IMG/VR virus record: IMGVR_UViG_3300032092_000132
Location: 1-33,565 of that record
DNA length: 33,565 nucleotides
Source of the DNA: a virus
Reading direction: 5' to 3' (one strand)
The translations under genes were made by a program, and so were the position numbers. This document shows positions 13,011 through 28,306 of the stretch, piece after piece (position 1 is the stretch's first letter; each line of letters begins with the position of its first letter). Under the pieces are notes generated by a model. That model was not told the DNA's origin. It searched no databases and saw nothing but the letters and a program-made list of their open reading frames with translations.

Positions 13011-13020
13011 GGAGTAGCTT

Positions 13021-13774: not shown

Positions 13775-13812
13775 GAAAGTGACAGTTACTCACAAAATGA
13801 AAAGAGGTAACT

Positions 13813-14190: not shown

Positions 14191-14193
14191 AAA

Positions 14194-14523
14194 ATGAATC
14201 AGTCTGAGTTCCTTGAAGCAGTCTTTAATCATTACGGATTGACCTTGCCACTTGGCGGGGAGAAATCAATCCTGTGTCCTGTACATGATGACTCACGTAA
14301 GTCTGCTTCGGTCAACTCAGACAAGGGACTCTGGGTATGTTATGCGTGTAACGCAAGTGGTTCTGGTATACAGATAATCATGGGTCGTGAAAACTTAACA
14401 TACCCAGAGGCTCGTTCATGGGCAGAGAAGAACATTGGTAAGGAGTCCAAGCAATCTGCACCATCACGTGGACGTAAGAAGTCAAGCGGACGTTGGACTC
14501 CACCTAGATTGCGAGTTGGCTAA
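14194..14523 (+). CDS. DnaG-type primase zinc-binding domain (stand-alone)
   Basis: A 109-residue protein with the CHC2-type zinc ribbon of primases: Cys28-x2-His31 (SILCPVHDDSRKSASV) and Cys49-x2-Cys52 (GLWVCYACNASGSG), then EARSWAEKN and a basic Lys/Ser tail. This domain recognises the priming site. It ends with RWTPPRLRVG and a TAATG overlap with the Ntn-hydrolase gene, instead of continuing into the polymerase core. The core with TOPRIM is encoded separately at 15050, so the primase appears to act as two chains. Confidence 0.83.
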   Translation: MNQSEFLEAVFNHYGLTLPLGGEKSILCPVHDDSRKSASVNSDKGLWVCYACNASGSGIQIIMGRENLTYPEARSWAEKNIGKESKQSAPSRGRKKSSGRWTPPRLRVG

Positions 14524-15053
14524 TGACAACTATCGTTGGTATCCAACAAGACAATGGCTGCATGTTAGTGGCTGACTCGCGTACAACTGCTGGCAATAGA
14601 CCATACTCTCATCCAACAGTTACTAAGATTAATAAGCGTGGCAAGTGGCTTATCGCTGGCGCTGGTGATGTGCAACCATGTGATGTAGTGCAGCATGTGT
14701 GGAAACCACCAACCATTCCAGCTAACATTAAAGATGAATATCATTTCATGATTACAACTGTGGCTCCGAGCATCAGGGAATGCATCAAAGAGTCTGGCTA
14801 TGTGCCAGACAAAGATGATGCCGATGCTGGATTCGAATTACTATTAGCTATCAACGGAACCATCTACCAAGTAGATGATTCCTACTCTGTATATCTGCGT
14901 GATGATGGGCTGTATGGCATAGGGTCTGGTTCATCGTGGGCATTAGGCGCACTGGCAGTAGGTGCAACTTGGAAGCAAGCAATGCAGACGGCAGCAAAGA
15001 ACGATGTGTATACTGCTCCCCCATTCATAGTGCATAGGCAGGAAAAGAAATGA
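14523..15053 (+). CDS. HslV/proteasome-beta-like Ntn hydrolase
   Basis: This 176-residue protein begins MTTIVGIQQDNGCMLVADSR, matching the start of HslV and 20S proteasome beta subunits. After Met removal Thr2 would be the N-terminal nucleophile, Asp18 (VADSR) matches the conserved Asp17, and Lys35 (TVTKINKRG) the conserved Lys33. GLYGIGSGSSWALGAL corresponds to the conserved G-S-G region, followed by ALAVGATWKQAMQTAAKND as the usual helix. Length is close to HslV. No HslU-like unfoldase or proteasome ATPase is seen in the window. It lies between the two primase genes with TAATG and ATGA junctions. It may process a phage or host protein; whether it forms rings or uses host ATPases is unknown. 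Confidence 0.8.
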   Translation: MTTIVGIQQDNGCMLVADSRTTAGNRPYSHPTVTKINKRGKWLIAGAGDVQPCDVVQHVWKPPTIPANIKDEYHFMITTVAPSIRECIKESGYVPDKDDADAGFELLLAINGTIYQVDDSYSVYLRDDGLYGIGSGSSWALGALAVGATWKQAMQTAAKNDVYTAPPFIVHRQEKK

Positions 15054-15697
15054 GAACAAACCCCAAGCTCATTGAACTTTGGACACGAGCAGCAAAGACT
15101 TATCATGAATCATTAGCTGGTTCACCAGCCGAGGCATACCTTGAGAAGCGTGGCATCTTAGATGGTGCTGAAAGATTCCAACTTGGTTACGTGGCAGAAC
15201 CAGTAGCAGGTCATGAAGACAGACTCAAGCATCACCTATCCATCCCCTATCTAACAGAGGCTGGTGTAGTTGGGTTTAAGTTTCGTCGCATTGATGATGG
15301 CGACCCAAAGTACATGATACCTACAGGACAGAAGCATCACCTGTATAACGTAGGTGCGATACTACATGCAGTGAGGGAGGTGTTAATAGTTGAAGGAGAA
15401 ATTGATGCAATATCTGCAACTCTTGCTGGTCATCCTGCTGTCGCTGTTGCTGGCGTTAACGCTTGGAAGCCTTATTTCTCACGTTGTTTTGATGGTATAG
15501 GCAGAGTAATCATTGCCACTGACAATGATGTAAAGGAAGATGGGTCTAACCCAGGGCAGGACTTAGCCCGACGATTGCAGGATGCAATCCCTCAAGCAAT
15601 CCGCGTGTCGCTACCGCCTGATAGCGACATCAATAGTATAATTGTGCGCCAAGGAGCTCAAGCTTTAACCGATTTGATTAAAGCACTAGACGATTAG
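15050..15697 (+). CDS. Primase TOPRIM catalytic core
   Basis: A 215-residue protein with an RNA-polymerase-like N-terminal part (SPAEAYLEKRGILDGAERFQ, LSIPYLTEAGVVGFKFRRID) followed by the TOPRIM fold. Its key acids are Glu115/Glu117 in VLIVEGEIDAISA and Asp158/Asp160 in VIIATDNDVKEDG, and NPGQDLARRLQ follows, as in phage and bacterial primases. These acids bind the Mg2+ ions that drive primer synthesis. No zinc ribbon is present; it is provided by the separate gene at 14194. ATG 15050 overlaps the Ntn-hydrolase stop (ATGA). Confidence 0.87.
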   Translation: MRTNPKLIELWTRAAKTYHESLAGSPAEAYLEKRGILDGAERFQLGYVAEPVAGHEDRLKHHLSIPYLTEAGVVGFKFRRIDDGDPKYMIPTGQKHHLYNVGAILHAVREVLIVEGEIDAISATLAGHPAVAVAGVNAWKPYFSRCFDGIGRVIIATDNDVKEDGSNPGQDLARRLQDAIPQAIRVSLPPDSDINSIIVRQGAQALTDLIKALDD

Positions 15698-15708
15698 AAG
15701 GGGCTGCC

Positions 15709-16023
15709 TTGGCTGAAGACACAACCATCCTTGAATTTGAAGAGGATGCTCAAAAAATATACGACGAGTTGCTTGCTATCTTAGTAAAGAAGCAACTTGA
15801 TTATGGTCCATACAACATCTGGCATGCGCCAGGTGGCGCAACCAATGGGCTGATGGTTCGTATGTCAGACAAGCTAGAGCGTTTGAAGAATCTGATATAC
15901 AAGAATAGAGAGCCGAACAATGAATCTCTTGAAGATTCATTTGTTGATATGGCTAACTATGCAATCATCGCACTAATGGTACAGCGTGGAGTGTGGGCTA
16001 AGTATGCCGAGAAACAGAAATAA
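15709..16023 (+). CDS. DUF1599/MazG-like nucleotide-associated protein
   Basis: TTG 15709 is chosen because AGAAGGGG lies just upstream and no ATG is available near the start; it gives 104 residues. The pattern YDELLAILVKKQLDYG, then NGLMVRMSDKLERLKNLIYK, ESLEDSFVDMANYAIIAL is that of DUF1599 (nucleotide-modification-associated domain 1), an all-alpha MazG-like fold with acidic metal ligands in helices. Members occur in phages beside nucleotide metabolism or DNA-modification genes. It may hydrolyse or sense unusual dNTPs; no other base-modification genes are evident apart from the glycosyltransferase at 17084. Confidence 0.75.
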   Translation: MAEDTTILEFEEDAQKIYDELLAILVKKQLDYGPYNIWHAPGGATNGLMVRMSDKLERLKNLIYKNREPNNESLEDSFVDMANYAIIALMVQRGVWAKYAEKQK

Positions 16024-16291
16024 AACTTACGAAGAGCAACGCATCTCTCGCATACGGTCTTACGGTATTAGTGTCGAAGAGTACGACCGTATGCTCGCCG
16101 AGCAGAATGGTGGTTGTTACATTTGTGGGGAAGCTCCCACCAACAGGGCGCTTGACATCGACCATTGTCATACGTCTGGCAAGGTACGAGGACTTCTTTG
16201 CAGTAACCATAATCGCGCCCTTGGTTTATTAGGTGATGACCCCGACCTACTACTCAAGTCTGTTGAATACTTGGTGAAGAACCATGGTTGA
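16004..16291 (+). CDS. Endonuclease VII-like HNH nuclease
   Basis: ATG 16004 gives 95 residues and a 20-nt overlap with the previous gene; GTG 15986 is a longer option. After a basic helical start (KTYEEQRISRIRSYGI) comes GCYICGEAP, then the diagnostic DIDHCHTSGKVRGLLCSNHN and RALGLLGDDPDLL. This is the recombination endonuclease VII family: zinc from two CxxC-like pairs and an active site D-x-DHCH. Here the second pair is Cys-x2-His (CSNH) rather than Cys-x2-Cys, a variant that still can bind zinc. In T4, EndoVII resolves branched DNA before packaging. Related small copies are also mobile homing nucleases, so this may be an insertion. Confidence 0.82.
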   Translation: MPRNRNKTYEEQRISRIRSYGISVEEYDRMLAEQNGGCYICGEAPTNRALDIDHCHTSGKVRGLLCSNHNRALGLLGDDPDLLLKSVEYLVKNHG

Positions 16292-16925
16292 ACTAACACG
16301 CGACCATGAAATATGGATACAGGTGGATGAGATAACTTCTATCATTGCCTACAACTTGTCCAAGAAGTACCATCGGTTTGCCGAGCGTGATGATATTAAG
16401 CAGGCGATGAATGAGTATGCCTGGAAGCGCAAAGATAAAGTCAACGAGTACCTCATGCGTGAAGATGATATCGAACGGAAGATGGGATACAAAGCTTTCA
16501 CTACCTTCATGCGTAGGGCAGGCGAGCGATACGCTCGCAAGGAAAAGGCTAAGGCTTTAGGGTTTGAACTTGGTGATGAATACTTCTATCGTATTGAGAT
16601 GGTTGAGAACCTGATTAAAGTTCTTGGCTCTGAAGATTCCCACTTGGTTAACCAAGTAATGGACCCAGATATGCATGGCGTTCAGGCTAAGCGACAGGTT
16701 AGTGAAGGCAACAACTTGCTAGCTTTGCTAGCAGATGTAGACAAGGCGATGAAAAGATTAGACCCACGTACGCAGGGGATACTTAACAGTCGCTTCGCTC
16801 AAGACCTACCACTTACGGAGATAGCAACCGCATGGGATATATCTCCGCAGCGAGTAGAACAGATAGCTACACGTGGTGTTAAAGATATTATCGAACTACT
16901 CGGAGGCGCTACACCTTATGCCTAA
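16284..16925 (+). CDS. Sigma-factor-like protein
   Basis: A 213-residue protein. The N-terminal half is charged and helical (RFAERDDIKQAMNEYAWKRK) and resembles sigma region 2 loosely. Residues about 155-205 form a clear helix-turn-helix region 4: LDPRTQGILNSRFAQDLPLT, EIATAWDISPQRVEQIATRG. It would guide host RNA polymerase to phage promoters or act as a replication/transcription regulator. With WhiB (which binds sigma region 4 of the host) in the same operon, a coordinated switch of transcription is plausible. The overlap with the HNH gene is 8 nt. Confidence 0.65.
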   Translation: MVELTRDHEIWIQVDEITSIIAYNLSKKYHRFAERDDIKQAMNEYAWKRKDKVNEYLMREDDIERKMGYKAFTTFMRRAGERYARKEKAKALGFELGDEYFYRIEMVENLIKVLGSEDSHLVNQVMDPDMHGVQAKRQVSEGNNLLALLADVDKAMKRLDPRTQGILNSRFAQDLPLTEIATAWDISPQRVEQIATRGVKDIIELLGGATPYA

Positions 16926-17097
16926 CTATAACTTTGCTTGTCCCATGTGTGACAAGCAGCAAGAGCTGTATCTTGGTTATGATGATGATGTCTTTCCTAA
17001 ATGTGAAGACTGCAATGTTACTTTAAGTAAGGTGTTCACCCCACCTGCAATCCATTTCAAGGGTGGCGGATGGGGAGGAAGTCATGGCGGACAATAA
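16918..17097 (+). CDS. FmdB-type small zinc-ribbon protein
   Basis: ATG 16918 overlaps the sigma-like gene by 8 nt. The 59-residue product begins MPNYNFACPMCDKQQELYLG with Cys8-x2-Cys11, then FPKCEDCNVTLSKVF with Cys29-x2-Cys32, followed by TPPAIHFKGGGWGG. This matches the FmdB/CxxC_CxxC_SSSS family of putative regulatory zinc ribbons down to the P-x-A-I-H-F-K-G end. The function of the family is not settled, and it is frequent in phages. Its 3' end overlaps the start of the glycosyltransferase gene. Confidence 0.82.
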   Translation: MPNYNFACPMCDKQQELYLGYDDDVFPKCEDCNVTLSKVFTPPAIHFKGGGWGGSHGGQ

Positions 17098-17854
17098 GCG
17101 TGAGCTGGTTGAGAAGATGAAAGCTAAGACCAGCGGAAGTAACAACCAAATCATGTTGACTTGGTGCGACAATGGCACTGTCGATGGCAAGTTCATGGAA
17201 GGCGTAGTGTATTCGCTATTAACTGCTGGTCTACCGATTACATCAGCGCAACGTGTACAAGGTAATCAGATAGGTAGACAGCGTGATACTGCATTCGATA
17301 CGTGGCACAAGAAGACAGACTTTGATTGGATACTATGGGTGGATAGCGACATCGTTCTAACGAACGAGTCGCTTAAGAAAGTATGGGATGCAGCTGACCC
17401 AGTAGAACGACCAGTTGTATCTGGTACTTACTTCATCAGTAAGCAGATGGAATCCTCCATCATGCAACCATATCCCGCGCTATTTACAGCCCACGAATCT
17501 GGTGATAAGTACACCATGACATACGTACATCCACTGCCACACGACCAGCTAATCCCTATCGACTACGCTGGGTTTGGATTCTTATTGATGCACCGTAATG
17601 CAGCTAATAAGATACGAGAATTCCATGGTGATAAAGCTTTGTTCATCGAGACAGATGGTGGTGGTAGTGATGGCAGAGATAGATTTATTGGTGAAGATAT
17701 CCAGTTCTTCATGAACATGAAGGAGGCTGGTGTCCCATTGTATGGTCATACTGGGGCAACGGTGAAACATATGAAACGATTTGCATTCGATGAAGAGTTC
17801 TACAAACTCTATTGGATTACGATGATGAACAGCGTGAAGGCGCAGGCGGAATAA
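17084..17854 (+). CDS. GT-A fold glycosyltransferase
   Basis: ATG 17084 is chosen because GGGGAGGAAGTC precedes it, though an in-frame GTG at 17063 exists. The 256-residue protein has NQIGRQRDTAFDTW, then FDWILWVDSDIVLTNESL with the DxD metal motif (Asp87, Asp89), PVVSGTYF and DYAGFGFLLMHR. A late IGEDIQFFMNMKEAGVPLYG serves as the catalytic E-D-x-x-F block. This is a nucleotide-sugar-dependent GT-A enzyme of the GT2/Anp1-like kind. Possible substrates are modified DNA bases, a tail protein or a host surface polymer; none is proven. It is the last gene of the rightward operon, 2 nt before a bidirectional terminator. Confidence 0.75.
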   Translation: MADNKRELVEKMKAKTSGSNNQIMLTWCDNGTVDGKFMEGVVYSLLTAGLPITSAQRVQGNQIGRQRDTAFDTWHKKTDFDWILWVDSDIVLTNESLKKVWDAADPVERPVVSGTYFISKQMESSIMQPYPALFTAHESGDKYTMTYVHPLPHDQLIPIDYAGFGFLLMHRNAANKIREFHGDKALFIETDGGGSDGRDRFIGEDIQFFMNMKEAGVPLYGHTGATVKHMKRFAFDEEFYKLYWITMMNSVKAQAE

Positions 17855-17855
17855 A

Positions 17856-17885
17856 AAAAGGCGGGGGTGTGAGCCCCCGCCTTTT
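17856..17885. terminator. Bidirectional Rho-independent terminator
   Basis: GGCGGGGG at 17860-17867 pairs perfectly with CCCCCGCC at 17874-17881 around the 6-nt loop TGTGAG. It is flanked by AAAA on the left (extending from A-rich 17853) and TTTT on the right, so it can stop both the rightward operon and the leftward operon that ends at 17891. It also marks the left edge of the hairpin-dense block. Confidence 0.93.
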
Positions 17886-17890
17886 CTCTT

Positions 17891-18037
17891 TTACTTCAGA
17901 CTTATCGAAGAGAAAAATTCTCTCTTCGATTGCTCTGCGTTATAGCAAAGCCGATACATATCGGCTTCACCTTTCCTCTGTCCCAACCGATAGGCAGTGA
18001 AACCTACAGCTATTGCTGTGATGATGATGGTAATCAT
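17891..18037 (-). CDS. Small membrane protein, 48 residues
   Basis: A frame read from 18037 down to TAA at 17893-17891. The N-terminus MITIIITAIAVGFTAYRLGQ is a single transmembrane helix or uncleaved signal anchor followed by a charged tail (RKGEADMYRL, EQSKREFFSS). Its ATG overlaps the stop of the upstream gene (ATGA), the coupling seen at most junctions in this operon, which supports translation. Two strong hairpins (10-bp at 17904-17930 and 8-bp at 17948-17967) lie inside it. It is the last gene of the leftward operon. Function unknown; a membrane-localised exclusion or lysis accessory role is possible. Confidence 0.6.
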   Translation of the reverse strand: MITIIITAIAVGFTAYRLGQRKGEADMYRLCYNAEQSKREFFSSISLK

Positions 18038-18360
18038 CTCTTTAATTCTCCAATCCGTTCTAGTAATTTCTCTGGTTGTTCAAGGTGAACAATTGCTGCA
18101 CGTCCACCTTCTGCATCACAGGCTGATAAGTTCTTCATGAACTTCTCAACCTGCAACTTGGTACTGAACTCACCCCACGCTTGGACTGGAGCCCATCGTG
18201 CCAACTGTGCTACGAGTATGTAGTTATCACGTTTCATTCTGGATTCATCCAGAGCTTCGATGATTTCTACGGCTAAGTCCGCAGCACTTTCGGAGTCAGT
18301 GTTGTCTGGGTCTAACAAGTTAGCAACTAACTTGATTTCAGTTGGGCGTGGTTTAGCCAT
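18034..18360 (-). CDS. Hypothetical protein, 108 residues
   Basis: A soluble helical protein: KPRPTEIKLVANLLDPDNTD, then DLAVEIIEALDESRMKRDNY, a central ILVAQLARWAPVQAWGEFS, and a C-terminal GGRAAIVHLEQPEKLLERIG. I vaguely recognise the opening P-R-P-T-E-I-K-L-V as similar to small actinophage early proteins, without a known role. Both ends are in ATGA-type overlaps. It contains four of the in-gene hairpins. Confidence 0.65.
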   Translation of the reverse strand: MAKPRPTEIKLVANLLDPDNTDSESAADLAVEIIEALDESRMKRDNYILVAQLARWAPVQAWGEFSTKLQVEKFMKNLSACDAEGGRAAIVHLEQPEKLLERIGELKR

Positions 18361-18491
18361 CAGTAGTTCTTAATACATTGAACGTAGTTCTGATGCTGAG
18401 CCAACGCTTCAAGCGCTTCTCTTGATGTGCGCCTTTCTATCTCTGCATTGCAGTAATCGCAGATGATAGTAACGCTAGCGATATGTATCAT
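18360..18491 (-). CDS. Small CxxC protein, 43 residues
   Basis: From ATG 18491 to TGA at 18362-18360. The sequence begins MIHIASVTIICDYCNAEIER with Cys11-x2-Cys14 and later a lone Cys near the C-terminus (NYVQCIKNY), suggesting an incomplete zinc knuckle that could form a site as a dimer. It fits exactly between two ATGA overlaps, which is the main support. Unknown function. Confidence 0.55.
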   Translation of the reverse strand: MIHIASVTIICDYCNAEIERRTSREALEALAQHQNYVQCIKNY

Positions 18492-18769
18492 GATTCCTCC
18501 TTGTTAAACCAAGGAGCACCAGCGATATGTTCCCTTGGCTTTGGCTCTGGGTCAGCAGAATGCTGACGTGTAACTAGTTGACATACATCACCGTCTGCTT
18601 CCTTGTAATGCATGTGAGCACCAGCCATGAAGAGGACTTCGTCCTCGTCATCGCCGATGCCGTAGGTGTCGTGATACCCGCAGTACCACGACCACCCATC
18701 GATAGGACGGATACGTAATGCTTGAGGTCTTACCTCAATCGTATCCTTGTCGGTCATCTTGCCCATCAT
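18488..18769 (-). CDS. Hypothetical protein, 93 residues
   Basis: The protein starts MMGKMTDKDTIEVRPQALRI; a second start at the next Met is possible. It contains PIDGWSWYCGYHDTYGIGDD and EVLFMAGAHMHYKEADGDVC, where Cys, His and acidic residues alternate (C-x2-H, H-x-H, C), hinting at a metal site. It ends EHIAGAPWFNKEES. This size and W-x-W-Y-C-x-Y-H pattern recall small actinophage early proteins, unverified. GAGGAATG upstream serves as ribosome binding site. Hairpins at 18497, 18551, 18632 and 18722 (the last nested inside a second 7-bp stem, 18709-18746) fall in it. Confidence 0.62.
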   Translation of the reverse strand: MMGKMTDKDTIEVRPQALRIRPIDGWSWYCGYHDTYGIGDDEDEVLFMAGAHMHYKEADGDVCQLVTRQHSADPEPKPREHIAGAPWFNKEES

Positions 18770-18990
18770 TCCTCCTCTGGAGCATACATAATAACATCAG
18801 TAAGCATAGCTTCTGTGTTGTCATGTCGTGGTTGTTCAATCAACTCTGGTTGATTGGTGTCCCTACTGTAGATGAATAGATAGTCAAGTGCTTTGAGAAG
18901 GTACTGCCCAACCTGCGCTGTTAACGCAGGCTGGACATACTCCTTCTGGTTGTCGATAGCATCGACATATTTCTGTAATGGATTATCCAC
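18766..18990 (-). CDS. Hypothetical protein, 74 residues
   Basis: A small, soluble and acidic protein: MDNPLQKYVDAIDNQKEYVQ, then PALTAQVGQYLLKALDYLF and a polar end (PRHDNTEAMLTDVIMYAPEE). Predicted mostly helical. It begins 2 nt after the DUF932 stop and overlaps the following gene at ATGA. No family recognised. Confidence 0.6.
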   Translation of the reverse strand: MDNPLQKYVDAIDNQKEYVQPALTAQVGQYLLKALDYLFIYSRDTNQPELIEQPRHDNTEAMLTDVIMYAPEEE

Positions 18991-18992
18991 GA

Positions 18993-19973
18993 TTAGATTC
19001 CTTTCGTGATTAGTTCAAGAGCCTTGCTCTTGATGCGGTCAGCTGAGCCAGTGATGATTCGTTCGGCTCGTGTTGCTTCTGACTTGTGGCTGTAGTGGTC
19101 AGCGTATTCGACGATGGCTTGGAATGCACCGAAAGCTGTGCCGTACAGTTCTTCTTGAGTACCAGTAGCACCCTTGTAGATTTGCTTGACTGCATCTCTT
19201 GATGCAATCGCTGAGTTGTACTGACGGCGCTGACCTGTGGTCAGCATGTTGTATGGTGCATTCTCCACTGCAGTTGGTAGCGAGAACATCTTCTTGAAGA
19301 TGGCATCTACCTCAGCATCAGACACCTTCTCATTAATGAGTCGGTTACCGACTGTCTCATACATCTGGATACCAGCGTATGTTACTGGGATAATCTTGCG
19401 GATATCTTCGATACGGAATTCCGCATTGGTTGTATGCTTCAACGTAAACGTTGCAGTCTTTGAGAAGATACCAGCAATCTGGTTGGTGCATCGTAAGCGG
19501 TTGATGCTTGGTGCAATCTGCAAAGCAGTCGAACCATCATGTGAAGTACGAGCCACAAGGTAAGCCTTGTGTTCATCGCCCTGAATCTTCACACCTTCTG
19601 GCAGTTCGAGCACCATGTAAACCTGTGCTCCACCTTTTACTTCACCAGCATATGCATATCTGGCATCGCCAGAATCAACTAGTGCATCCAGTGCAGAGAA
19701 CATCTCTCCATTCTGGAACACTTTGTATCGACCGCCAACTGTACCTAGTACAGACTGACCGCCGTCCTGATTGGTACGGATAGTTGCGAAAGTGTTAGGC
19801 ACTTCGATAGTGCTGACACCCTCATCGTTCAAGGCTAAAGCTTGAACGTCTGCTAGTGATACGTTCCAGTCAAGCCCTGCTTGACGTGCTGCATCTACTG
19901 CTGATGTTGCTGATACTTCTTCTCCGATAATGCTATAAGCATTACGGCGTGACTTGATTGTTAGTTGTGACAT
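18993..19973 (-). CDS. DUF932 family protein
   Basis: At 326 residues this is the largest gene of the leftward operon. GFL-type landmarks of DUF932 (phage/plasmid-like TIGR03299) are visible: an N-terminal QAGLDWNVSLADVQALALND, the block FATIRTNQDGGQSVLGTVGG with RYKVFQNGEMFSALDALVDS, then VYMVLELPEGVKIQGDEHKA, LVARTSHDGSTALQIAPSIN and LRCTNQIAGI. The family is widespread in plasmids and phages of Actinobacteria and Proteobacteria and has no settled biochemical function. ATG 19973 follows GAAAGGAAGTACC in a CAACCAACC leader shared with other genes here. About ten in-gene hairpins are present. Confidence 0.88.
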   Translation of the reverse strand: MSQLTIKSRRNAYSIIGEEVSATSAVDAARQAGLDWNVSLADVQALALNDEGVSTIEVPNTFATIRTNQDGGQSVLGTVGGRYKVFQNGEMFSALDALVDSGDARYAYAGEVKGGAQVYMVLELPEGVKIQGDEHKAYLVARTSHDGSTALQIAPSINRLRCTNQIAGIFSKTATFTLKHTTNAEFRIEDIRKIIPVTYAGIQMYETVGNRLINEKVSDAEVDAIFKKMFSLPTAVENAPYNMLTTGQRRQYNSAIASRDAVKQIYKGATGTQEELYGTAFGAFQAIVEYADHYSHKSEATRAERIITGSADRIKSKALELITKGI

Positions 19974-20012
19974 GGTACTTCCTTTCAGGTTGGGTTGGTT
20001 GTGAGGTATATC

Positions 20013-20282
20013 TTACAGTCGGCTGTTGAAATCGTCAACTGCAGGGGAGAGTTGGTCATGGTAATGACCTTGGTAGCAGATGATGCCTTCGTCTTGAACA
20101 CGTACGAACCACGTTACATATGGGTCAACGGTACGTTGATAAGGCTCGGCGGTCTGCCTGTCCTCTGTCCATAGACAGAGAGCTATGTAGCCAGATGAAT
20201 CCCATGCTGGCTTGATATCTATGATGAGCGCCCCATTCTTGCAGCGGTCACCACGTCGTGGTACTAGGGTTAGTGCTGGCAT
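20013..20282 (-). CDS. Hypothetical protein, 89 residues
   Basis: A beta-rich soluble protein: ALTLVPRRGDRCKNGALIID, IKPAWDSSGYIALCLWTEDR, DPYVTWFVRVQDEGIICYQG and HYHDQLSPAVDDFNSRL. Its start overlaps the stop of the preceding gene in TAATG. Two or three separated cysteines do not make a clear metal site. No family recognised. Three of the in-gene hairpins (20054, 20125, 20163) lie here. Confidence 0.62.
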   Translation of the reverse strand: MPALTLVPRRGDRCKNGALIIDIKPAWDSSGYIALCLWTEDRQTAEPYQRTVDPYVTWFVRVQDEGIICYQGHYHDQLSPAVDDFNSRL

Positions 20283-20758
20283 TATCTAGCCTCCTGTATG
20301 TAGTCGACACGAGTGTCGTCGATAGACCATGTGTCTACCTCTGTGTTTTCACCATCGATGTCCCAGTCTGGGTCACTGGAGATACCAATCTCCTCAGCAA
20401 TTGAGCGAGCATCATCTTCTGATGCTGCCGTTACCTTGAAGGTTGCATACAAGGTGTATCGCATCTGTACTTCGTACTCCTTGGTGAATACCAATTCGTT
20501 ACCGAAGATATCTTTTAGAATCTCAGATAGTTCTGAGAATTCTATGGTGTCATCTGGGTCTGACTGATTCTCTTGAATCAGGTTGTTGATTGATGTGTAT
20601 AAATCTCGCACCTTGTTGCGATGGTCGCTGACTAGGTTTGAGTAGTTAGAAACCTTGGTTTCTAGGTCGGATAGTTTCGTATTGAGTTGTTGTACTAGTA
20701 CATCTGGTGCAATGTAATCGGTAACTGTTGCACCGAATGGTGTTGTTTCTTCGGTCAT
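20282..20758 (-). CDS. Hypothetical coiled-coil protein, 158 residues
   Basis: ATG 20758 is chosen because it follows CAACCAACCGAAAGGAAAAC; the frame could extend upstream but through the palindromic module. Residues about 20-75 form a coiled coil (VQQLNTKLSDLETKVSNYSN, HRNKVRDLYTSINNLIQENQ). The C-terminal part is an alpha/beta domain (VQMRYTLYATFKVTAASEDD, ARSIAEEIGI) with an acidic ending. The last portion resembles small DUF-type domains that add to viral proteins, but I do not recognise it. Confidence 0.65.
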   Translation of the reverse strand: MTEETTPFGATVTDYIAPDVLVQQLNTKLSDLETKVSNYSNLVSDHRNKVRDLYTSINNLIQENQSDPDDTIEFSELSEILKDIFGNELVFTKEYEVQMRYTLYATFKVTAASEDDARSIAEEIGISSDPDWDIDGENTEVDTWSIDDTRVDYIQEAR

Positions 20759-20792
20759 TTGTTTTCCTTTCGGTTGGTTGGTTGGTGTTGCC

Positions 20793-20826
20793 CTTATATA
20801 TATGCACAGCTTTGCTGTGCTATCTT
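20793..20826 (-). repeat. Palindromic module, copy 1 of 3
   Basis: GCACAGC-TTT-GCTGTGC at 20804-20820 forms a perfect 7-bp stem with 3-nt loop and is flanked by CTTATATATAT on the left and TATCTT on the right. Read on the minus strand it is AAGATA-hairpin-ATATATATAAG, followed by the CAACCAACC/GAAAGGA leader of the gene starting at 20758. It lies in a 77-nt gap in the leftward operon. The same module occurs at 22245 and 23400. Confidence 0.85.
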
Positions 20827-20835
20827 TGATGCGTG

Positions 20836-21018
20836 TTAGCCACAACATGCACCATCATTGGTATCGGCACAGCATTCTGAACAGAATGGTTCGTTGTCCT
20901 TCATGCTATTGCGACAGCCATATTCATCCATCGTGTTGGTGCATGGATGTCCTTCGTATCCGAAGCAAGTTAGTTGAGCCAACTCTTCGGCTGTCATATC
21001 GTAGATATGTTTAGTCAT
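20836..21018 (-). CDS. Cysteine-rich small protein, 60 residues
   Basis: The start at ATG 21018 gives an 8-nt overlap with the upstream gene. The sequence is MTKHIYDMTAEELAQLTCFG, YEGHPCTNTMDEYGCRNSM and then KDNEPFCSECCADTNDGACC. With eight cysteines and one or two His, it very likely binds zinc (a C-x2-C-C set near the C-terminus) or forms disulfides. No matching family is recognised. It ends 10 nt before palindromic module copy 1. Confidence 0.58.
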   Translation of the reverse strand: MTKHIYDMTAEELAQLTCFGYEGHPCTNTMDEYGCRNSMKDNEPFCSECCADTNDGACCG

Positions 21019-21355
21019 CATCCTCATCCTCGTCATCATCCTCCATATGGTGTGGGTCAATAGCAAGTTTGCTATCGATTATGTAAGCACGAACTGCGTT
21101 ATCGATACCTTCATATCCATCTTCATCGATGGATACTGGTTGCCAGTTATCACGAAGAATCCATGCCATCAACACCTCTGGTGTGAAGACAGTCTGGATG
21201 TCGTACTCTTCTTGGTCTGCCACCATTGCTTGCAATGAATGGAAGATTGCTAGGTCTGTCATGCTAGAACGCCAGCCATCTAATGATTGGCGGTATGCGG
21301 TCATGGTTTCGCTAGTCTTTGCTAGCAAAGCCACACTATCTTCGATTGTATTCAT
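21011..21355 (-). CDS. Hypothetical protein with acidic tail, 114 residues
   Basis: Mostly helical and soluble (NTIEDSVALLAKTSETMTAY, RQSLDGWRSSMTDLAIFHSL, AMVADQEEYDIQTVFTPEVL), with YEGIDNAVRAYIIDSKLAID before a C-terminal run of Glu/Asp (EDDDEDEDDD). Such tails can mimic DNA or bind basic partners. Its start overlaps the zinc-ribbon gene at 21352 (ATGA). Function unknown. Confidence 0.62.
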   Translation of the reverse strand: MNTIEDSVALLAKTSETMTAYRQSLDGWRSSMTDLAIFHSLQAMVADQEEYDIQTVFTPEVLMAWILRDNWQPVSIDEDGYEGIDNAVRAYIIDSKLAIDPHHMEDDDEDEDDD

Positions 21356-21474
21356 GCTGATACCCCCTTATTGGCACAGTCATAGCAAGTCTTTTCGACT
21401 TGCACTCCTAGTACGAATGCATCTATTCCTGAATAGATGATGTTGTCTTGTGTGTTACAGATGGTGCATTTCAT
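21352..21474 (-). CDS. Zinc-ribbon microprotein, 40 residues
   Basis: The start at ATG 21474 follows GAGGAACCAA, a good ribosome binding site, and gives 40 residues: MKCTICNTQDNIIYSGIDAF, VLGVQVEKTCYDCANKGVSA. Two Cys-x2-Cys pairs (3/6 and 30/33) around a beta segment form a rubredoxin-like zinc ribbon. An upstream extension of the frame would overlap the GP88-like gene and lacks a ribosome binding site. Two hairpins (21385, 21420) fill most of its length. Confidence 0.6.
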   Translation of the reverse strand: MKCTICNTQDNIIYSGIDAFVLGVQVEKTCYDCANKGVSA

Positions 21475-21482
21475 TTGGTTCC

Positions 21483-22211
21483 TCATTTCTTTGCGATAGC
21501 AAAGCGAACATCCACTTTGCCATCGACACATAGTCGGCATGTTGCACAAGCACTACCTTCGGTAGTGATGAGTGGGATTGAGCCCAGATTCTCTGGGCAT
21601 TTGGCTCCCACTTTGCCTGTCATGTTGAGCATGGTGTCCTTTGCATCAGCAAAGGTGTCAGCAAGATAGGCAATCTTTATCTTGTCGGTTTGTTTACGTA
21701 AGTAAACAGCATCCGATTTGTTCTCATCATCTGTACTGAAGTACAGCGATAGGTTGTACAGTCCAGCCAGAATTGTGGCAGCGGACGGCACTCTTGTATA
21801 GACCCAGAACTGGGTCTTGTGATTGTGTAGTTCGATGACTCGTCGCCATGCATAGGCATAGGTATCGGAGAAGAAATCCCCATCCCAATGGATGCGGAAC
21901 ATCGGCTCTGCATTCTTGGCTTTGCATTCTAATTCGAATGCAGTAATCATGTCATCAAGAAGCGACACCATAGTGTCGTAGTCTGCATCTTTGATGGTGT
22001 TCCAGTTGTGTAAGAGAGTATCTCTTACTGAAGGGAAGATGCGTTCTAACTTTCCAGCGTAGCAAATCTTCTCGCATATGCTGGTTGCATTAGGACATGA
22101 GTAGGACTTGCCACTTGGCAAGCCGAATGTGTTGGCAATTGCTGAGCGTTTGCCGTTCGGTGTTGGTAGGTTGGCTACCTTTCGGTCGTTAGACCGCTTG
22201 AGTCCTGCCAT
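21483..22211 (-). CDS. GP88-like actinophage protein
   Basis: A 242-residue protein. It opens GLKRSNDRKVANLPTPNGKR and has SYSCPNATSICEKICYAGKL, then RIHWDGDFFSDTYAYAWRRV and FWVYTRVPSAATIL, and ends with GSIPLITTEGSACATCRLCV. The order 'SCP....C..CYA ... R-x-H-x-x-GDF-x-S ... Y-T-R' with a C-terminal C-x2-C-x2-C cluster matches the GP88 family, named from a mycobacteriophage gene, of unknown function. The clustered cysteines suggest one or two metal or Fe-S sites. ATG 22211 follows a CAACCAACC-GAAAGGAGCAACACC leader. It carries ten hairpins, the largest number in any gene. Confidence 0.8.
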   Translation of the reverse strand: MAGLKRSNDRKVANLPTPNGKRSAIANTFGLPSGKSYSCPNATSICEKICYAGKLERIFPSVRDTLLHNWNTIKDADYDTMVSLLDDMITAFELECKAKNAEPMFRIHWDGDFFSDTYAYAWRRVIELHNHKTQFWVYTRVPSAATILAGLYNLSLYFSTDDENKSDAVYLRKQTDKIKIAYLADTFADAKDTMLNMTGKVGAKCPENLGSIPLITTEGSACATCRLCVDGKVDVRFAIAKK

Positions 22212-22244
22212 GGTGTTGCTCCTTTCGGTTCGGTTGGTTGCTTC

Positions 22245-22274
22245 CTATATATGCACAGCGAAGCTGTGCTATCT
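22245..22274 (-). repeat. Palindromic module, copy 2 of 3
   Basis: GCACAGC-GAA-GCTGTGC at 22253-22269 is flanked by CTATATAT and TATCT, with the same core stem as the copies at 20793 and 23400. On the minus strand it starts within the stop codon of the gene at 22273 (TCATAGATAGC) and precedes the leader of the GP88-like gene. Confidence 0.85.
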
Positions 22275-22629
22275 ATGACTTTGCGTATGTGGTGAAGTCA
22301 TCGGGGATTTGTACTACTGCCCCGCGATTGTTTAGCGCAGAGTAGATACAAGCCACTGCCAGATGGTCATTGCCACCGATGTGCCATCGATACGGAGTAT
22401 CGAGGTCGATGTCTTCGTACTCTTTGTAATCGTAGATATCTGCCACGATGTCGGGAATACCATTGCCCACTTCGAATAGAAGTGTCCAGTGATATTGCAC
22501 CTTGTCACCCTCGTACCTGTCCACGTTTCCAAACGCTAGGTTCAAGCCACGTCGGGTTGTTGTGATGTATCCCTTTAGGGATGTGCCATTGATATCTATC
22601 TCTGGCGAATTGATTGCCTTAAGTTTCAC
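22273..22629 (-). CDS. Hypothetical protein, 118 residues
   Basis: GTG 22629 directly abuts the stop of the previous gene. The product has MKLKAINSPEIDINGTSLKG, YITTTRRGLNLAFGNVDRYE, HWTLLFEVGNGIPDIVADIY and WHIGGNDHLAVACIYSALNN, ending IPDDFTTYAKS. It is beta-rich with scattered acidic residues. No family recognised. Its stop codon merges with the start of palindromic module copy 2, so its 3' end and the next gene's leader share one structure. Confidence 0.6.
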   Translation of the reverse strand: MKLKAINSPEIDINGTSLKGYITTTRRGLNLAFGNVDRYEGDKVQYHWTLLFEVGNGIPDIVADIYDYKEYEDIDLDTPYRWHIGGNDHLAVACIYSALNNRGAVVQIPDDFTTYAKS

Positions 22630-22902
22630 TTAGTCCTCCTCGTTGTTGAGCCATGGCTCAAGATGATGAGCCTCTACTATGGCGTAGGCTGGTGCTGTTG
22701 GATACCCTTTCCAAAAGATTCCTTTTGGAAGTTGGATACTCTTATGAGTATCGCCGTCATCGACTGCATAGATGGCTTCGATACATGGTTCCACCATGGT
22801 AAGTGGAACTGGCGGATAATGATTACCACGTAAGTGGTAACCGATTGATTGGCGAATGTCAATGACATTCTCCACTAGGTCATGTGCTAGATTGCTACCC
22901 AT
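22630..22902 (-). CDS. Hypothetical protein, 90 residues
   Basis: A soluble protein: MGSNLAHDLVENVIDIRQSI, GYHLRGNHYPPVPLTMVEPC, IEAIYAVDDGDTHKSIQLPK and GIFWKGYPTAPAYAIVEAHH. Start overlaps the preceding gene's end by 8 nt. Unknown family. It holds six hairpins within 273 nt, including the longest in-gene stem with a 4-nt loop (9 bp, 22709-22730). Confidence 0.6.
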   Translation of the reverse strand: MGSNLAHDLVENVIDIRQSIGYHLRGNHYPPVPLTMVEPCIEAIYAVDDGDTHKSIQLPKGIFWKGYPTAPAYAIVEAHHLEPWLNNEED

Positions 22903-23194
22903 TTAATGCCTCCTCCTTGTAGTAGTTCTTTGCGATAGCAAACCATTCACTATCGCCCCATCCACCCATGATTTGGCGGATGAGTAGTGTGGCTGGGGCA
23001 TCATTGCCCCATTCACGTTCGGCTAGACCAGCCACTTGGTTGACGTAGTCATCCCATTCTTGGCGTAATACATTGACGAACTCATGAATATCTACCGACT
23101 GCTTAGCAGTCGACATGAGGTCACGCCATGCATCTTCATCGTTGTCCATTACCAATAGGTAATCTTGTACGAATTGCTCACTTGCTGTATTCAT
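22895..23194 (-). CDS. Hypothetical protein, 99 residues
   Basis: An acidic helical protein: MNTASEQFVQDYLLVMDNDE, DAWRDLMSTAKQSVDIHEFV and NVLRQEWDDYVNQVAGLAER, followed by ATLLIRQIMGGWGDSEWFAI and AKNYYKEEALNG. I recall small helical early proteins of this kind (F-V-Q-D-Y-L.. acidic start) in actinophages, without known function. ATG 23194 overlaps the stop of the first gene of the operon (TAATG). Confidence 0.62.
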   Translation of the reverse strand: MNTASEQFVQDYLLVMDNDEDAWRDLMSTAKQSVDIHEFVNVLRQEWDDYVNQVAGLAEREWGNDAPATLLIRQIMGGWGDSEWFAIAKNYYKEEALNG

Positions 23195-23361
23195 TATCGT
23201 TCCTCTCGGATTGTTGTTGCCCAGTGCTTCTCATCTATTGCAGACCTACGGTCTGCTATCTTGATTGCGAGTACATCCCATAGCAATGCGAGGGATAACG
23301 TGCCAGTGATTCCAATGAGGATTCCGACAGCGAGGTAATCGCCCCAATAAAGTGCATCCAT
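23194..23361 (-). CDS. Small membrane protein, 55 residues, first gene of the leftward operon
   Basis: Read from ATG 23361 to TAA at 23196-23194. It follows GATTGGAGCAACAAG, a usable ribosome binding site. Residues 8-33 are a transmembrane helix (DYLAVGILIGITGTLSLALL, then WDVLAIKI), followed by a charged tail (ADRRSAIDEKHWATTIREER). Its TAATG junction with the next gene supports expression. It is the second membrane microprotein of this operon (the other is the last gene, 17891-18037). Function unknown; a role at the cell envelope is likely. Confidence 0.6.
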   Translation of the reverse strand: MDALYWGDYLAVGILIGITGTLSLALLWDVLAIKIADRRSAIDEKHWATTIREER

Positions 23362-23399
23362 CTTGTTGCTCCAATCTGCCCCGATATTTTCGAGGCTCC

Positions 23400-23432
23400 C
23401 CTTATATATGCACAGCGAAGCTGTGCTATCTT
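23400..23432 (-). repeat. Palindromic module, copy 3 of 3
   Basis: GCACAGC-GAA-GCTGTGC at 23410-23426 is flanked by CTTATATAT and TATCTT. This copy lies upstream of the whole leftward operon, between its candidate promoter (23491-23519) and first gene, so it would be in the 5' leader of the transcript. Copies 1 and 2 are inside the operon. Confidence 0.85.
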
Positions 23433-23490
23433 GAGATGCGTAGCGCCCGCATCATGGCGCTCCATCTGAGGGCTACCAATAGCCAACCCG

Positions 23491-23519
23491 CAGATACAAT
23501 AGATATCATCGTTTGTCAA
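23491..23519 (-). promoter_or_regulatory. Candidate leftward promoter of the accessory operon
   Basis: On the minus strand TTGACA (23519-23514) is a perfect -35 box, followed after 17 nt by TATCTG (23496-23491), a weak -10. Transcription would start near 23484 and run through palindromic module copy 3 into the first gene. An 8-bp hairpin (CAAGTACC/GGTACTTG, 23517-23536) overlaps the -35, a possible operator. Confidence 0.5.
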
Positions 23520-23534
23520 GTACCTTTAGGTACT

Positions 23535-23577
23535 TGCTATTAATTGCCAACACGTAAGTGCTATTTATTGCCAACGC
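23535..23577. repeat. 24-bp-period direct repeat (two copies)
   Basis: TGCTATTAATTGCCAACACG at 23535 is repeated 24 bp later as TGCTATTTATTGCCAACGCA at 23559. A 12-nt palindrome, ACGCATATGCGT (about 23574-23585), follows the second copy. Direct repeats in a divergent control region are typical of replication iterons or operators. Confidence 0.7.
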
Positions 23578-23596
23578 ATATGCGTGTATCGCGGGG

Positions 23597-23642
23597 GTGT
23601 CATGCCGTATGTGTCGCATCATGTGTCATGTCATGTGTCATG
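23597..23642. repeat. GTGTC(ATG) repeat array in the divergent control region
   Basis: GTGTC occurs at 23597, 23611, 23623 and 23635, spaced 14, 12 and 12 bp. Three copies continue as GTGTCATG and the last two form a perfect tandem of CATGTGTCATGT. The inverted form GACAC appears at 23654 and another GTGTCATT at 23724, in the promoter region of the rightward gene. This is a plausible multi-site binding array for an initiator or repressor. Confidence 0.7.
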
Positions 23643-23694
23643 ATTCAATGAAAGACACGACACACCGCAATTACGCTCAGCCGTCGGGCTGAAT

Positions 23695-23723
23695 TTGACA
23701 ATGGGGGGCTGGTCGTGTATTCT
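23695..23723 (+). promoter_or_regulatory. Candidate rightward promoter
   Basis: TTGACA at 23695-23700 and TATTCT at 23718-23723 are separated by 17 nt, a good sigma-70-type promoter. The transcript would have a leader of about 45 nt containing GAATCAACTGAAAGG before ATG 23776. Its start region includes a GTGTCATT copy of the repeat. Confidence 0.7.
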
Positions 23724-23775
23724 GGTGTCATTCAATCGGCAACTCCGTCGGTCGAATCAACTGAAAGGTAAGACA

Positions 23776-24045
23776 ATGAAGACAGCATGGACACACGATG
23801 ATTTACTAGTAAATCTAGAGGCTGAAGTTGCTGAAGTTAAATGGGAATTGGGTATCGAATCTCTAAAAGAGATTCCAGATTTCATGGTGCTTCAGCCTCA
23901 TGAAATTCATCATGCGAAGATTGGAGATATTCTCCAATTGGCAAACGGCAAGAATTGCATCATCTTCGACATAGTCGAAACACCAACGGCGTTGGAGATT
24001 TCAGCGGTAACCGAATCACTAAGAGTGATTGTGAAACGCTTCTAG
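23776..24045 (+). CDS. Hypothetical protein, 89 residues, from the divergent rightward unit
   Basis: ATG 23776 follows AACTGAAAGGTAAGAC. The protein starts MKTAWTHDDLLVNLEAEVAE, VKWELGIESLKEIPDFMVLQ and then HAKIGDILQLANGKNCIIFD and TALEISAVTESLRVIVKRF. The second half looks like a small beta-barrel of SH3 or KOW kind (I-G-D-I-L-Q-L-A-N-G-K). No family is recognised. It is the only gene of its transcription unit, sits opposite the leftward operon with its own promoter and terminator, and carries five stem-loops of 6-8 bp like the leftward genes. A regulator of the block is an attractive but unproven idea. Confidence 0.65.
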   Translation: MKTAWTHDDLLVNLEAEVAEVKWELGIESLKEIPDFMVLQPHEIHHAKIGDILQLANGKNCIIFDIVETPTALEISAVTESLRVIVKRF

Positions 24046-24119
24046 GGATAGTCAGCCCATCTCTCCACTTCTAAAGAAGTGGGGGGGTGGGTTCTTCCCT
24101 TTTCAGCTGAAATTTTCGT

Positions 24120-24150
24120 GGGGCAGGGGGCAACCCTTGCCCCTTTTTTT
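24120..24150 (+). terminator. Rho-independent terminator of the 23776 gene
   Basis: GGGGCA (24120-24125) pairs with TGCCCC (24138-24143) and GGG with CCC (24126-24128/24134-24136), with one T bulged at 24137, followed by seven Ts at 24144-24150. It marks the right edge of the hairpin-dense block. Confidence 0.85.
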
Positions 24151-24407
24151 GTGCTCACAGCCTATGCTACCCCAGGGGTTTTTAACCAGACCCCCCACCT
24201 ACCCCCCACTATCATCAAAAATATTTTCACCAGAAAACCAGTGCTGACCAGGACTTTTACCAAGTTAATAAAAAAACTTTTAGAAAGCCCTTGAGAAACG
24301 CCCATGCTCTAGCCCCCTATATAAGTGTAACGGCGGAGTTCCACGAAGCCGTAAAACGCGGGCTGAACGCCCGCTTTAAGTTTGGTTATGCTTATGTGGG
24401 GATACCT

Positions 24408-24436
24408 CTGTCAACCCCCTTGTAGACCCCTACAAC
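24408..24436 (+). promoter_or_regulatory. Candidate leaderless promoter of the packaging genes
   Basis: CTGTCA (24408-24413), a 17-nt spacer and TACAAC (24431-24436) place the start of transcription at the GTG codon at 24444, which lies 7 nt after the -10. The same hexamer-to-start spacing occurs at 10102-10115. The alternative is a TTG start at 24450 with GGAG at 24441-24444. Confidence 0.5.
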
Positions 24437-24443
24437 CTCTGGA

Positions 24444-26339
24444 GTGACATTGGAAAGAAATCTAAATCCCGAAGAAGCTCGGAAAGAATTAATCAGCTTG
24501 GTACGCCAAGGGCGCACCATCGCTGATGCCCTAAAGGTTGTTGGTAGAAGCCGAAGCTGGTATGACACTCAACGACGTGAAGCCCCTGGCTTTTCGGCGC
24601 TAATTGACAACGTTCGGTTTAGAACCCAAGACCTCGCACAAGATGCTCGGTCTAACCTATCTGACTTTGCTGAGTTCTCTGAGAAATACCTGGGAGCCAA
24701 AGTTTGGGACCATATGCTAAATGTGGTCGATATGTTGGAAGGTAAAGAGCCCCGCTGGATTGACCCAGCGATGACATACGAAAAAGGGTCGGCGGGTCTG
24801 TCCCGCCTCTTGGTAAATGTTCCACCAAACCACGCCAAGACGATGACCATCACAATTAACTACGTGACCTACCGTATCGTTAAAAATCCGAATATCTCGG
24901 TTATCGTTATTTCTAAAACCCAAGAGCAAGCCAAGAAGTTTCTCTACGCTATCAAGCAAAGACTGACACATCCTCGGTATGCTGACATGCAGGTTGCTTT
25001 TGGACCAGCAGACGGTTACAAAGCTACAGCTGACCAGTGGTCGGCAAATAAGATTTATCTCGGTGGAGACATCCGCGACAACGATGCTAAAGACCCTACG
25101 GTCGAAGCTATCGGTATGGGCGGTCAGGTCTACGGCGCACGTGCTGACCTAATCGTCCTTGATGACGTGGTCACTCTCTCTAATGCGGGAGAGTGGGCAA
25201 AGCAACAGGAATGGATTCGCCAAGAAGTTGCTTCTCGTCTTCCACCAGGTGGCGGACAGCTACTCGTTGTTGGTACACGAGTATCTGCCGTTGACCTCTA
25301 CAAAGAACTGCGTAACCCGCAGCATTACACCGATGGCATATTGCCATGGTCATACTTGTCCATGCCTGCCGTACTTCAGTACGCAGACGACCCAAAGGAT
25401 TGGAAAACTCTTTGGGGTAAGTCAGAACAACCTCTCACTGATGACGATGTCCCAGACGAGAATGGTTATTTTGACCGATGGACTGGACCGCGTTTAACGG
25501 CGGTCCGCAATGAGGCTGGTCCATCAAAGTGGTCTTTGGTTTACCAGAACCTCGATATCGCGGAGAATGCAATCTTCGACCCGCTGTGCGTTAGAGGCGC
25601 AGTAAACGGAATGAGAAAAGCGGGTGCTTTGGTTGCAGGCGCAGCAGGACATCCTGAAAATAGTTCAAACTTTTATCGGGTTATAGGTATCGACCCAGCA
25701 ATGACTGGTGATACTGCAGCTGTCGCTTATGCGGTTGACCGCAGGACACACAAGCGCTATGTCATGGACGTTCACGTCATGAGCAGCCCCACACCTGCAG
25801 CAATCCGTTCGTTGATTAGAGAATGGACAGATGCTTACAAGCCACATACTGTCATAGTTGAGTCAAACGCTTTTCAGCTTTTCTTGACTCAAGATGAGGA
25901 AATCAGAAACTTCCTCTCCACTCGTGGAATTAATTACCGACCACATTACACTGGTAATAATAAGCAAGACCCAGAGTTCGGCGTAGCCTCTCTGGCTCCG
26001 TTATTTGGAACCGTCATTAAGCGAGACGGCAACAATAACAACTTGAAACATGCAGGCGATAACATGATTGAACTGCCTGACTCTTCAAGAAATGAACATA
26101 TTAAAAAGCTAGTAGAACAACTTGTAACCTGGCAACCAGGAGTACAGGGCAAGCGATTAAAGATGGATGCTGTGATGGCACTCTGGTTCTGTGAAATCGT
26201 AGCTCGTGACGTTCTACTTACTTCAGCAAATGTACCGAACTTCCTCAAGAATGAATTCACACCTCAATCTGATATCGAGTCAAGGTACATCGTCAACTTA
26301 GATGACTTAGCTGCAGCGCAGCGAATAGCGAGATTGTGA
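24444..26339 (+). CDS. terL: Terminase large subunit
   Basis: A 631-residue protein. An N-terminal HTH-like part (TIADALKVVGRSRSWYDTQR) is followed by the ATPase domain with VNVPPNHAKTMTITINY (Walker-A-like, about residues 124-140), IVISKTQEQAKKFLYAIKQR (motif Q/C area) and DLIVLDDVV as the Walker B with catalytic acid. The C-terminal nuclease has VIGIDPAMTGDTAAVAYAVD, then VIVESNAFQ and KMDAVMALWFCEIV. This is the motor that cuts and packages concatemeric DNA into the portal. The start is GTG 24444 if leaderless or TTG 24450 by ribosome binding site. No small terminase gene is seen upstream. The portal gene follows after 4 nt. Confidence 0.93.
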   Translation: MTLERNLNPEEARKELISLVRQGRTIADALKVVGRSRSWYDTQRREAPGFSALIDNVRFRTQDLAQDARSNLSDFAEFSEKYLGAKVWDHMLNVVDMLEGKEPRWIDPAMTYEKGSAGLSRLLVNVPPNHAKTMTITINYVTYRIVKNPNISVIVISKTQEQAKKFLYAIKQRLTHPRYADMQVAFGPADGYKATADQWSANKIYLGGDIRDNDAKDPTVEAIGMGGQVYGARADLIVLDDVVTLSNAGEWAKQQEWIRQEVASRLPPGGGQLLVVGTRVSAVDLYKELRNPQHYTDGILPWSYLSMPAVLQYADDPKDWKTLWGKSEQPLTDDDVPDENGYFDRWTGPRLTAVRNEAGPSKWSLVYQNLDIAENAIFDPLCVRGAVNGMRKAGALVAGAAGHPENSSNFYRVIGIDPAMTGDTAAVAYAVDRRTHKRYVMDVHVMSSPTPAAIRSLIREWTDAYKPHTVIVESNAFQLFLTQDEEIRNFLSTRGINYRPHYTGNNKQDPEFGVASLAPLFGTVIKRDGNNNNLKHAGDNMIELPDSSRNEHIKKLVEQLVTWQPGVQGKRLKMDAVMALWFCEIVARDVLLTSANVPNFLKNEFTPQSDIESRYIVNLDDLAAAQRIARL

Positions 26340-26343
26340 ATCG

Positions 26344-28113: not shown

Positions 28114-28127
28114 CTAAGGAGAAACAA

Positions 28128-28277: not shown

Positions 28278-28296
28278 TACTTAACGTCTTTAAGTA
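28278..28296 (+). other. Intergenic stem-loop with alternative pairing
   Basis: TACTTAA and TTAAGTA form a 7-bp stem with loop CGTCT (28278-28296). Just upstream, TTAAGT in the gene end (28270-28275) can pair instead with ACTTAA, so three arms compete. There is no T tract, so it is not a terminator; a processing site or translation control for the next gene is possible. Confidence 0.4.
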
Positions 28297-28306
28297 AAGG
28301 ATAAAC

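Follow-up and report, generated by a model that had tools for sequence, protein, structure and literature searches.

An excess of small perfect stem-loops in a block of phage genes, with selection on mRNA structure as the favoured explanation

Why should a run of small phage genes be packed with short, perfect stem-loops whose sequences, apart from one recurring element, are unrelated? The question is raised by a virus record of 33565 bases (IMG/VR record IMGVR_UViG_3300032092_000132; the window, meaning the whole stretch of DNA analysed), apparently a fragment, in which a giant open reading frame (ORF) is cut at the 3' end. Positions 17904-24082 (the block) hold a series of small leftward genes, treated here as a single operon and with genes for DUF932 and GP88 proteins among them, and a divergent gene at 23776. 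With a stem defined as a perfect inverted repeat of at least 6 or at least 7 bp enclosing a loop of 3-8 nt, the block contains 79 stems of ≥ 6 bp (9.0 ± 2.8 in dinucleotide shuffles) and 47 of ≥ 7 bp (2.1 ± 1.4). A first-pass annotation had estimated about 70 and about 45, with about 9 and 2-3 expected by chance, and the scripted counts and shuffles agree well with it.

The excess is explained neither by protein sequence nor by codon use or composition. Fifteen block genes hold 66 stems of ≥ 6 bp, where 1000 synonymous shuffles gave 12.2 ± 3.2 (maximum 25), and 40 of ≥ 7 bp, where they gave 3.5 ± 1.8 (maximum 10), so that perfect small hairpins reach about five times what the proteins require. 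The synonymous shuffling that had been proposed as a check leaves the excess standing, and the earlier claim that amino-acid coding and folding are satisfied at once in these genes holds. Elsewhere in the window, stems are also raised over dinucleotide shuffles, about 3-fold for ≥ 6 bp and 5-fold for ≥ 7 bp (positions 1-17903: 72 versus 24.3 and 34 versus 6.2; positions 24083-33565: 38 versus 12.2 and 14 versus 2.9), and the 21 genes outside the block exceed their synonymous shuffles (70 versus 30.7 and 34 versus 8.8). The block is therefore a peak on a raised background; the idea that the density would be local to it stands as regards the peak and fails as regards the remainder of the window. 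The peak is confined to the leftward operon and the rightward gene, as had been proposed, and the hairpins that bound it at 17856 and 24120 both look terminator-like. An earlier figure of two stems in 10115-11175 appears too low, since the 1-kb bin from 10000 contains five and the next bin one.

Stem lengths in the block are 6-10 bp and loops are of 3-4 nt in 64 of the 79 stems. The closing pair is most often 5'C-G3' (131 of 303 unique stems with 3-4 nt loops, the recurrent leader element described below excluded), and in the window's operon stem spacing is somewhat more even than random (coefficient of variation 0.61 versus 0.77 ± 0.10). Apart from the leader element the stem sequences are unrelated, so the shared sequence of dispersed palindromes of the repetitive extragenic palindromic type is absent.

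The excess is real and common to a phage clade. Among 230 loci fetched, 121 have an alignment of 600 bases or more to the block (some share a contig) and carry 1.6 to 9.1 stems of ≥ 7 bp per kb in the aligned span, down to 66% nucleotide identity; shuffles of the window's block give about 0.34 per kb. Over whole loci of 80 GP88 relatives, the density is 1.9 to 5.4 per kb at 45-50% GC and 0.5 to 2.2 per kb at 33-40% GC. The best terminase matches in the phage collection are at 46% identity (record ct2KA10, LanE43-AprF5, which we take to be the Planktophila phage LanE43AprF5 treated in the accessible part of PMC10202952) and at 43% (Streptomyces phages). For stems of ≥ 7 bp the window has 95 against 12.6 in shuffles, and four terminase-related Streptomyces phages, with tRNA regions excluded, have 103-131 against 17-22 (5- to 7-fold). 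Lambda (24 versus 16.3, 1.5-fold), the first 50 kb of T4 (53 versus 30.3, 1.75-fold), LanE43AprF5 (21 versus 14.6), HTVC010P (24 versus 21.6) and MadMarie (28 versus 26.7) lie closer to their shuffles. T7 falls below them (4 versus 11.7).

The Streptomyces Beephvirinae (Stella, WRightOn and FlowerPower) and their relative Abafar resemble the window in terminase (43% identical), in a partly common gene order, in the 5- to 7-fold stem excess and, in the three phages tested, in the scarcity of stems at start codons. They differ in that Stella has stems dispersed genome-wide with no single peak, in a folding-energy excess that is nearly symmetric between strands, and in the lack of enrichment downstream of starts.

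Stems in the block operons are placed with respect to start codons. With 248 starts from 77 operons kept at an 84% identity cut, coverage by stems was 0.261 at -60..-26, 0.041 at -20..+19 and 0.209 at +20..+49, where random positions give a null value of 0.141; at the 118 starts left by a 55% cut the values were 0.250, 0.043 and 0.175. Predicted pairing falls to 0.39-0.46 over -20 to +19, compared with 0.52-0.63 elsewhere. Of the 11 leftward genes scored in the window, 6 carry a stem downstream of the start that begins between +23 and +32. For the 90-aa gene, a stem at about +28..+52 is found in 25 of 64 distinct relatives, in 12 kinds. At the 152 starts of three Streptomyces phages the gap recurs, together with a peak of up to 0.22 upstream and none downstream, and coverage around starts in lambda, T7, T4 and MadMarie is ≤ 0.12.

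Purifying selection fits the evolution of the stems better than mutation does. Among seven close relatives, the block's stem arms have lower rates of change than its other sites at codon positions 1, 2 and 3 (0.028 versus 0.059, 0.017 versus 0.030 and 0.086 versus 0.137), and among 11 more distant relatives the same is true at codon position 3 (0.312 versus 0.383). Outside the block, arms are slower at codon position 3 (0.055 versus 0.126). Clusters of derived (polarised) mutations fall in stems in 8 of 438 cases, where 19.4 were expected, and in Streptomyces phages in 3 of 220, where 7.4 were expected. That arms are slower and that new mutation clusters avoid stems argues for selection rather than template-switch mutation.

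When block stems were compared across 19 relatives, 4468 pairs were unchanged and 1587 changed. Of the latter, 170 had both bases replaced so as to form a different Watson-Crick pair, about twice the 60-90 seen with slid partners; a further 200 changed on both sides without pairing, 243 became G-U, 282 became A-C and 692 were otherwise broken. Two of the relatives, L009 and L010, have identical counts. These two also give the same matches, and the longer (82688 bases, against 40624) may be a doubled assembly. Individual stems are frequently lost among relatives while local density is retained. The description of the stems as conserved structure is not supported for individual stems, only 170 of the 1587 changed pairs having become another Watson-Crick pair; what is kept is local density. 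In the comparison with homologues that had been suggested as a check, compensatory pairs exceed the slid control and stems are often broken.

Evidence on the coding strand comes from folding energy. When local folding energy is compared with that of synonymous shuffles, the coding strand shows the larger excess in 25 of 29 operons, hand-picked for diversity out of the 77, and in 147 of 201 ORFs, with a mean difference over the 29 operons of -0.27 kcal/mol per 40 nt; because the genomes are related, p-values overstate the significance of this bias. Six control phages have strand differences between -0.01 and -0.14, all of them non-significant at the 0.05 level. In addition, near-perfect stems with one mismatch in the 77 operons carry G-U in 76 cases against 29.7 expected and A-C in 47 against 41.5, the observed counts being of unique sequences and the expected ones not made unique. 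Loops are enriched in both A and T (0.41 and 0.30 versus 0.31 and 0.22), so that loop composition is no evidence of strand; a suggestion that A-richness of loops is confined to the coding strand was dropped.

We favour the explanation that selection acts on the block to form small hairpins in its mRNA, by which ribosome-binding sites are left accessible and other parts of the transcript are probably shielded from nucleases. Its probability is put at about 0.52, close to even odds for the statement in full, with a DNA-level role as the main rival. Codon choices, and perhaps some amino acids, would be selected so that the mRNA folds as a string of short perfect hairpins. These would tie up sequence on either side of the ribosome-binding sites, which stay open, and may protect the remaining transcript from single-strand ribonucleases. 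The selected trait would be the local density and position of hairpins and not particular stems, so that stems turn over and density stays. A wider version, in which the whole operon has an mRNA design with ribosome-sized gaps at starts that serves, through selected density, as a general defence of the transcript against ribonucleases (of host decay or of an RNA-cutting defence), is more speculative. Among the candidate functions listed at the outset, a role in mRNA is the best supported, by coding-strand bias and start-codon phasing; a DNA-hairpin role is a possible one, and dsRNA-like decoys or binding sites for a structure-specific protein would be further candidates.

Several observations weigh against selection on mRNA. 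At the 118 highly distinct starts the downstream enrichment is weak (0.175 versus 0.143, p = 0.053), and stems lie upstream of 61 of these starts, downstream of 37 and on both sides of 14, and touch the start itself in 12. GP88 starts lack a clean gap (coverage 0.16-0.26 at +10..+29, 23 distinct starts), and 21 window starts outside the block show no exclusion of stems just upstream (0.10-0.11 at -20..-1). Outside the block, arm rates are not lower at codon position 1 (0.032 versus 0.029). Pair fates in the block show almost no preference for G-U over A-C (ratio 0.86 for the counts given above; slid about 0.78), and the same comparison gives 565 to 545 in Streptomyces phages (1.04; slid 0.87) and 226 to 140 outside the block (1.61; slid about 1.29). 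The two strands are much alike in energy excess outside the block and in three Streptomyces phages, with FlowerPower showing a slightly greater excess on the non-coding strand (p = 0.045).

In the main rival explanation, hairpins or cruciforms formed from single-stranded or supercoiled phage DNA would serve replication, packaging or protection, with the mRNA as a bystander. Such a DNA-level role is a possibility to be taken seriously, though we consider it doubtful. The excess across the whole window and the Streptomyces Beephvirinae genomes, where it is near-equal on both strands, the similar G-U and A-C fates and the absence of strand bias in loop composition agree with it, and short loops closed by 5'C-G3' suit DNA hairpins as well as RNA ones. 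It leaves unaccounted for the start-codon phasing in operons, the coding-strand bias in the block, the G-U enrichment in near-perfect stems and a peak limited to one operon and its divergent neighbour. The virion RNA polymerase promoters of phage N4 are hairpins with short stems and small loops, like those of the block, which differ in being unrelated in sequence and far too many. No match to an N4-type polymerase was found in the giant ORFs of Stella and LanE43AprF5, the cut-off giant ORF of the window not having been searched.

Stems could also arise without any function, through sequence-directed mutagenesis in which quasipalindromes are corrected by template switching. Ladoukakis and Eyre-Walker reportedly attributed an excess of small inverted repeats to this process in 2008; their case shares with ours short perfect inverted repeats within genes, and differs in that the expected mutational signatures were not found overall here. 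The turnover of stems at steady density agrees with template switching, and single one-arm multi-base changes were found in Abafar (at 2504) and WRightOn (at 24147). Changes limited to one arm exceed their control in a single comparison, that of tier 2 of the relatives alone, and there slightly (240 of 608 versus 34%). They are below control among close relatives (79 of 315 versus 35%) and between tiers (258 of 1154 versus 26%), derived clusters avoid stems, block arms are slower than background and start codons are avoided. Arm asymmetry and polarised clusters led us to reject it as the main source of stems, and it is unlikely as an explanation. Still more improbable is that the stems are terminators or attenuators, for example against antisense read-through. 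Terminator-like sites do number 22, compared with 5.1 in shuffles, with 18 on the + strand. However, tails on the antisense strand barely exceed the base T content (0.332 versus 0.310; 27 of 415 T-rich, 18.8 expected), sense-strand tails show no excess (0.219 versus 0.219; 4 versus 3.3), and antisense terminators were rejected because the bulk of stems have no T tract; the two boundary hairpins do look terminator-like. Chance, composition or a dispersed repeat family can hardly be the answer: lambda and T4 do have a background excess of stems of ≥ 7 bp, but the block's excess survives dinucleotide and synonymous shuffles, and stem sequences differ except in the leader element. Relaxed protein constraint behind the peak is not supported either, as 11 stems occur within the 729 nt of GP88 and 4 within the 1896 nt of the terminase TerL, at similar nucleotide identity of the two regions to relative L006 (83.1% and 83.6%; one comparison).

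The phenomenon is an extreme form of something already described, selection on local mRNA structure, and the statement that no described system matches it was too strong. In bacteria, the accessible part of PMC4060949 describes local mRNA structure beyond protein-preserving shuffles; the phage operons share this excess of base-pairing and differ in its size (about five-fold in perfect stems), in a peak over one operon and in start-codon phasing. In Escherichia coli, inverted repeats are overrepresented roughly 20-45 bp before and 25-60 bp after start codons and depleted immediately before them, according to the part of Miura et al. 2018 that is accessible (PMC6060812). Depletion at the start with enrichment on either side is likewise seen in the block operons, but what is a genome-wide statistical trend in E. 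coli is here concentrated in one phage operon, with many genes having one or both hairpins. The accessible text of Zhou and Wilke 2011 (PMC3072339) describes reduced mRNA structure at start codons in double-stranded DNA viruses, which the open translation-initiation region resembles, the flanking excess of hairpins being additional in the phage operons. A literature search found no report of this density in these phages, subscription papers being mostly outside its reach. If selection on mRNA is the cause, natural genes have been recoded for dense mRNA structure with open ribosome-binding sites, many phage genomes are available for their study, and hairpin density is selectable although single hairpins turn over. 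The block would then be a test bed for structure and translation sharing one message, and the cultured Streptomyces relatives make parts of this testable now.

One element does recur. The claim that all stems are different applies to most of them, but the stem gcacagc/gctgtgc is present three times and a fourth hairpin shares its left flank (Table 1). In the window these hairpins sit between -65 and -42 relative to four start codons, and most copies are flanked by AGATAGC before and ATATA after. With a loose pattern, 24 of the 77 operons yielded one to four copies each, and at least one of these copies is doubtful. Across 18 copies picked by hand, every one of the 126 pair cells is paired; variation is seen at two of the seven pairs, by double changes only (nine cells); among 500 shuffles none reaches nine double-change cells and 148 reach two such pairs. 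The element may be a processing or protein-binding site.

Table 1. Positions of the stem-loop block, its boundary hairpins, its genes and the leader hairpins in the window
Feature	Position	Strand	Remarks
Stem-loop block	17904..24082	.	79 perfect stems ≥ 6 bp, 47 ≥ 7 bp
Bidirectional terminator-like hairpin, 12 bp stem	17856..17885	.	Low end of block
Terminator-like hairpin with T tail	24120..24143	+	High end of block
Operon gene, 108 aa	18034..18360	-	Weak phrog_3965 match
Operon gene, 93 aa	18488..18769	-	Stem +31..+47 from start
Operon gene, 74 aa, GTG start	18766..18990	-	Stems -43..-25, +23..+39
DUF932 (PF06067) gene, 326 aa	18993..19973	-	11 stems ≥ 6 bp; stem +29..+45
Operon gene, 89 aa	20013..20282	-	
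Operon gene, 158 aa	20282..20758	-	Leader hairpin -62..-46
Leader hairpin, gcacagc stem	20804..20820	-	
Operon gene, 114 aa	21011..21355	-	Stem -48..-30
GP88 family (PF17338) gene, 242 aa	21483..22211	-	11 stems ≥ 6 bp; leader hairpin -58..-42
Leader hairpin, gcacagc stem	22253..22269	-	Loop varies among relatives
Operon gene, 118 aa	22273..22629	-	Stems -43..-26, -32..-17
Operon gene, 90 aa	22630..22902	-	Stem +32..+48
Operon gene, 99 aa	22895..23194	-	Stems -62..-46, +31..+46
First gene of leftward operon, 55 aa	23194..23361	-	
Leader-type hairpin, gcagacc stem	23240..23256	-	Left flank shared with gcacagc copies
Leader hairpin, gcacagc stem	23410..23426	-	Precedes first operon gene
Divergent rightward gene	23776..24045	+	5 stems ≥ 6 bp, first at +24..+39

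A DNA search of positions 15000-26000 against the phage collection gave no near match, an Rfam search at gathering scores gave no match and a tRNA search found none. A DUF932 search of bacterial and archaeal genome contigs returned 26 pattern matches, with no relative among them. The window also codes for a terminase, a portal protein, a DnaB-like helicase, a RusA-like resolvase, primase pieces, a sigma factor and a glycosyltransferase. From the terminase matches and GC content, the hosts of this group of tailed phages are probably freshwater actinobacteria. A gene for an HslV/proteasome-like peptidase (14523-15053) is flanked by two primase-like genes. The giant ORF (30463-33564) overruns the end of the window and is preceded by a phrog_8200 gene, as in Stella; by gene order, it may correspond to Stella gp10 (phrog_10618).

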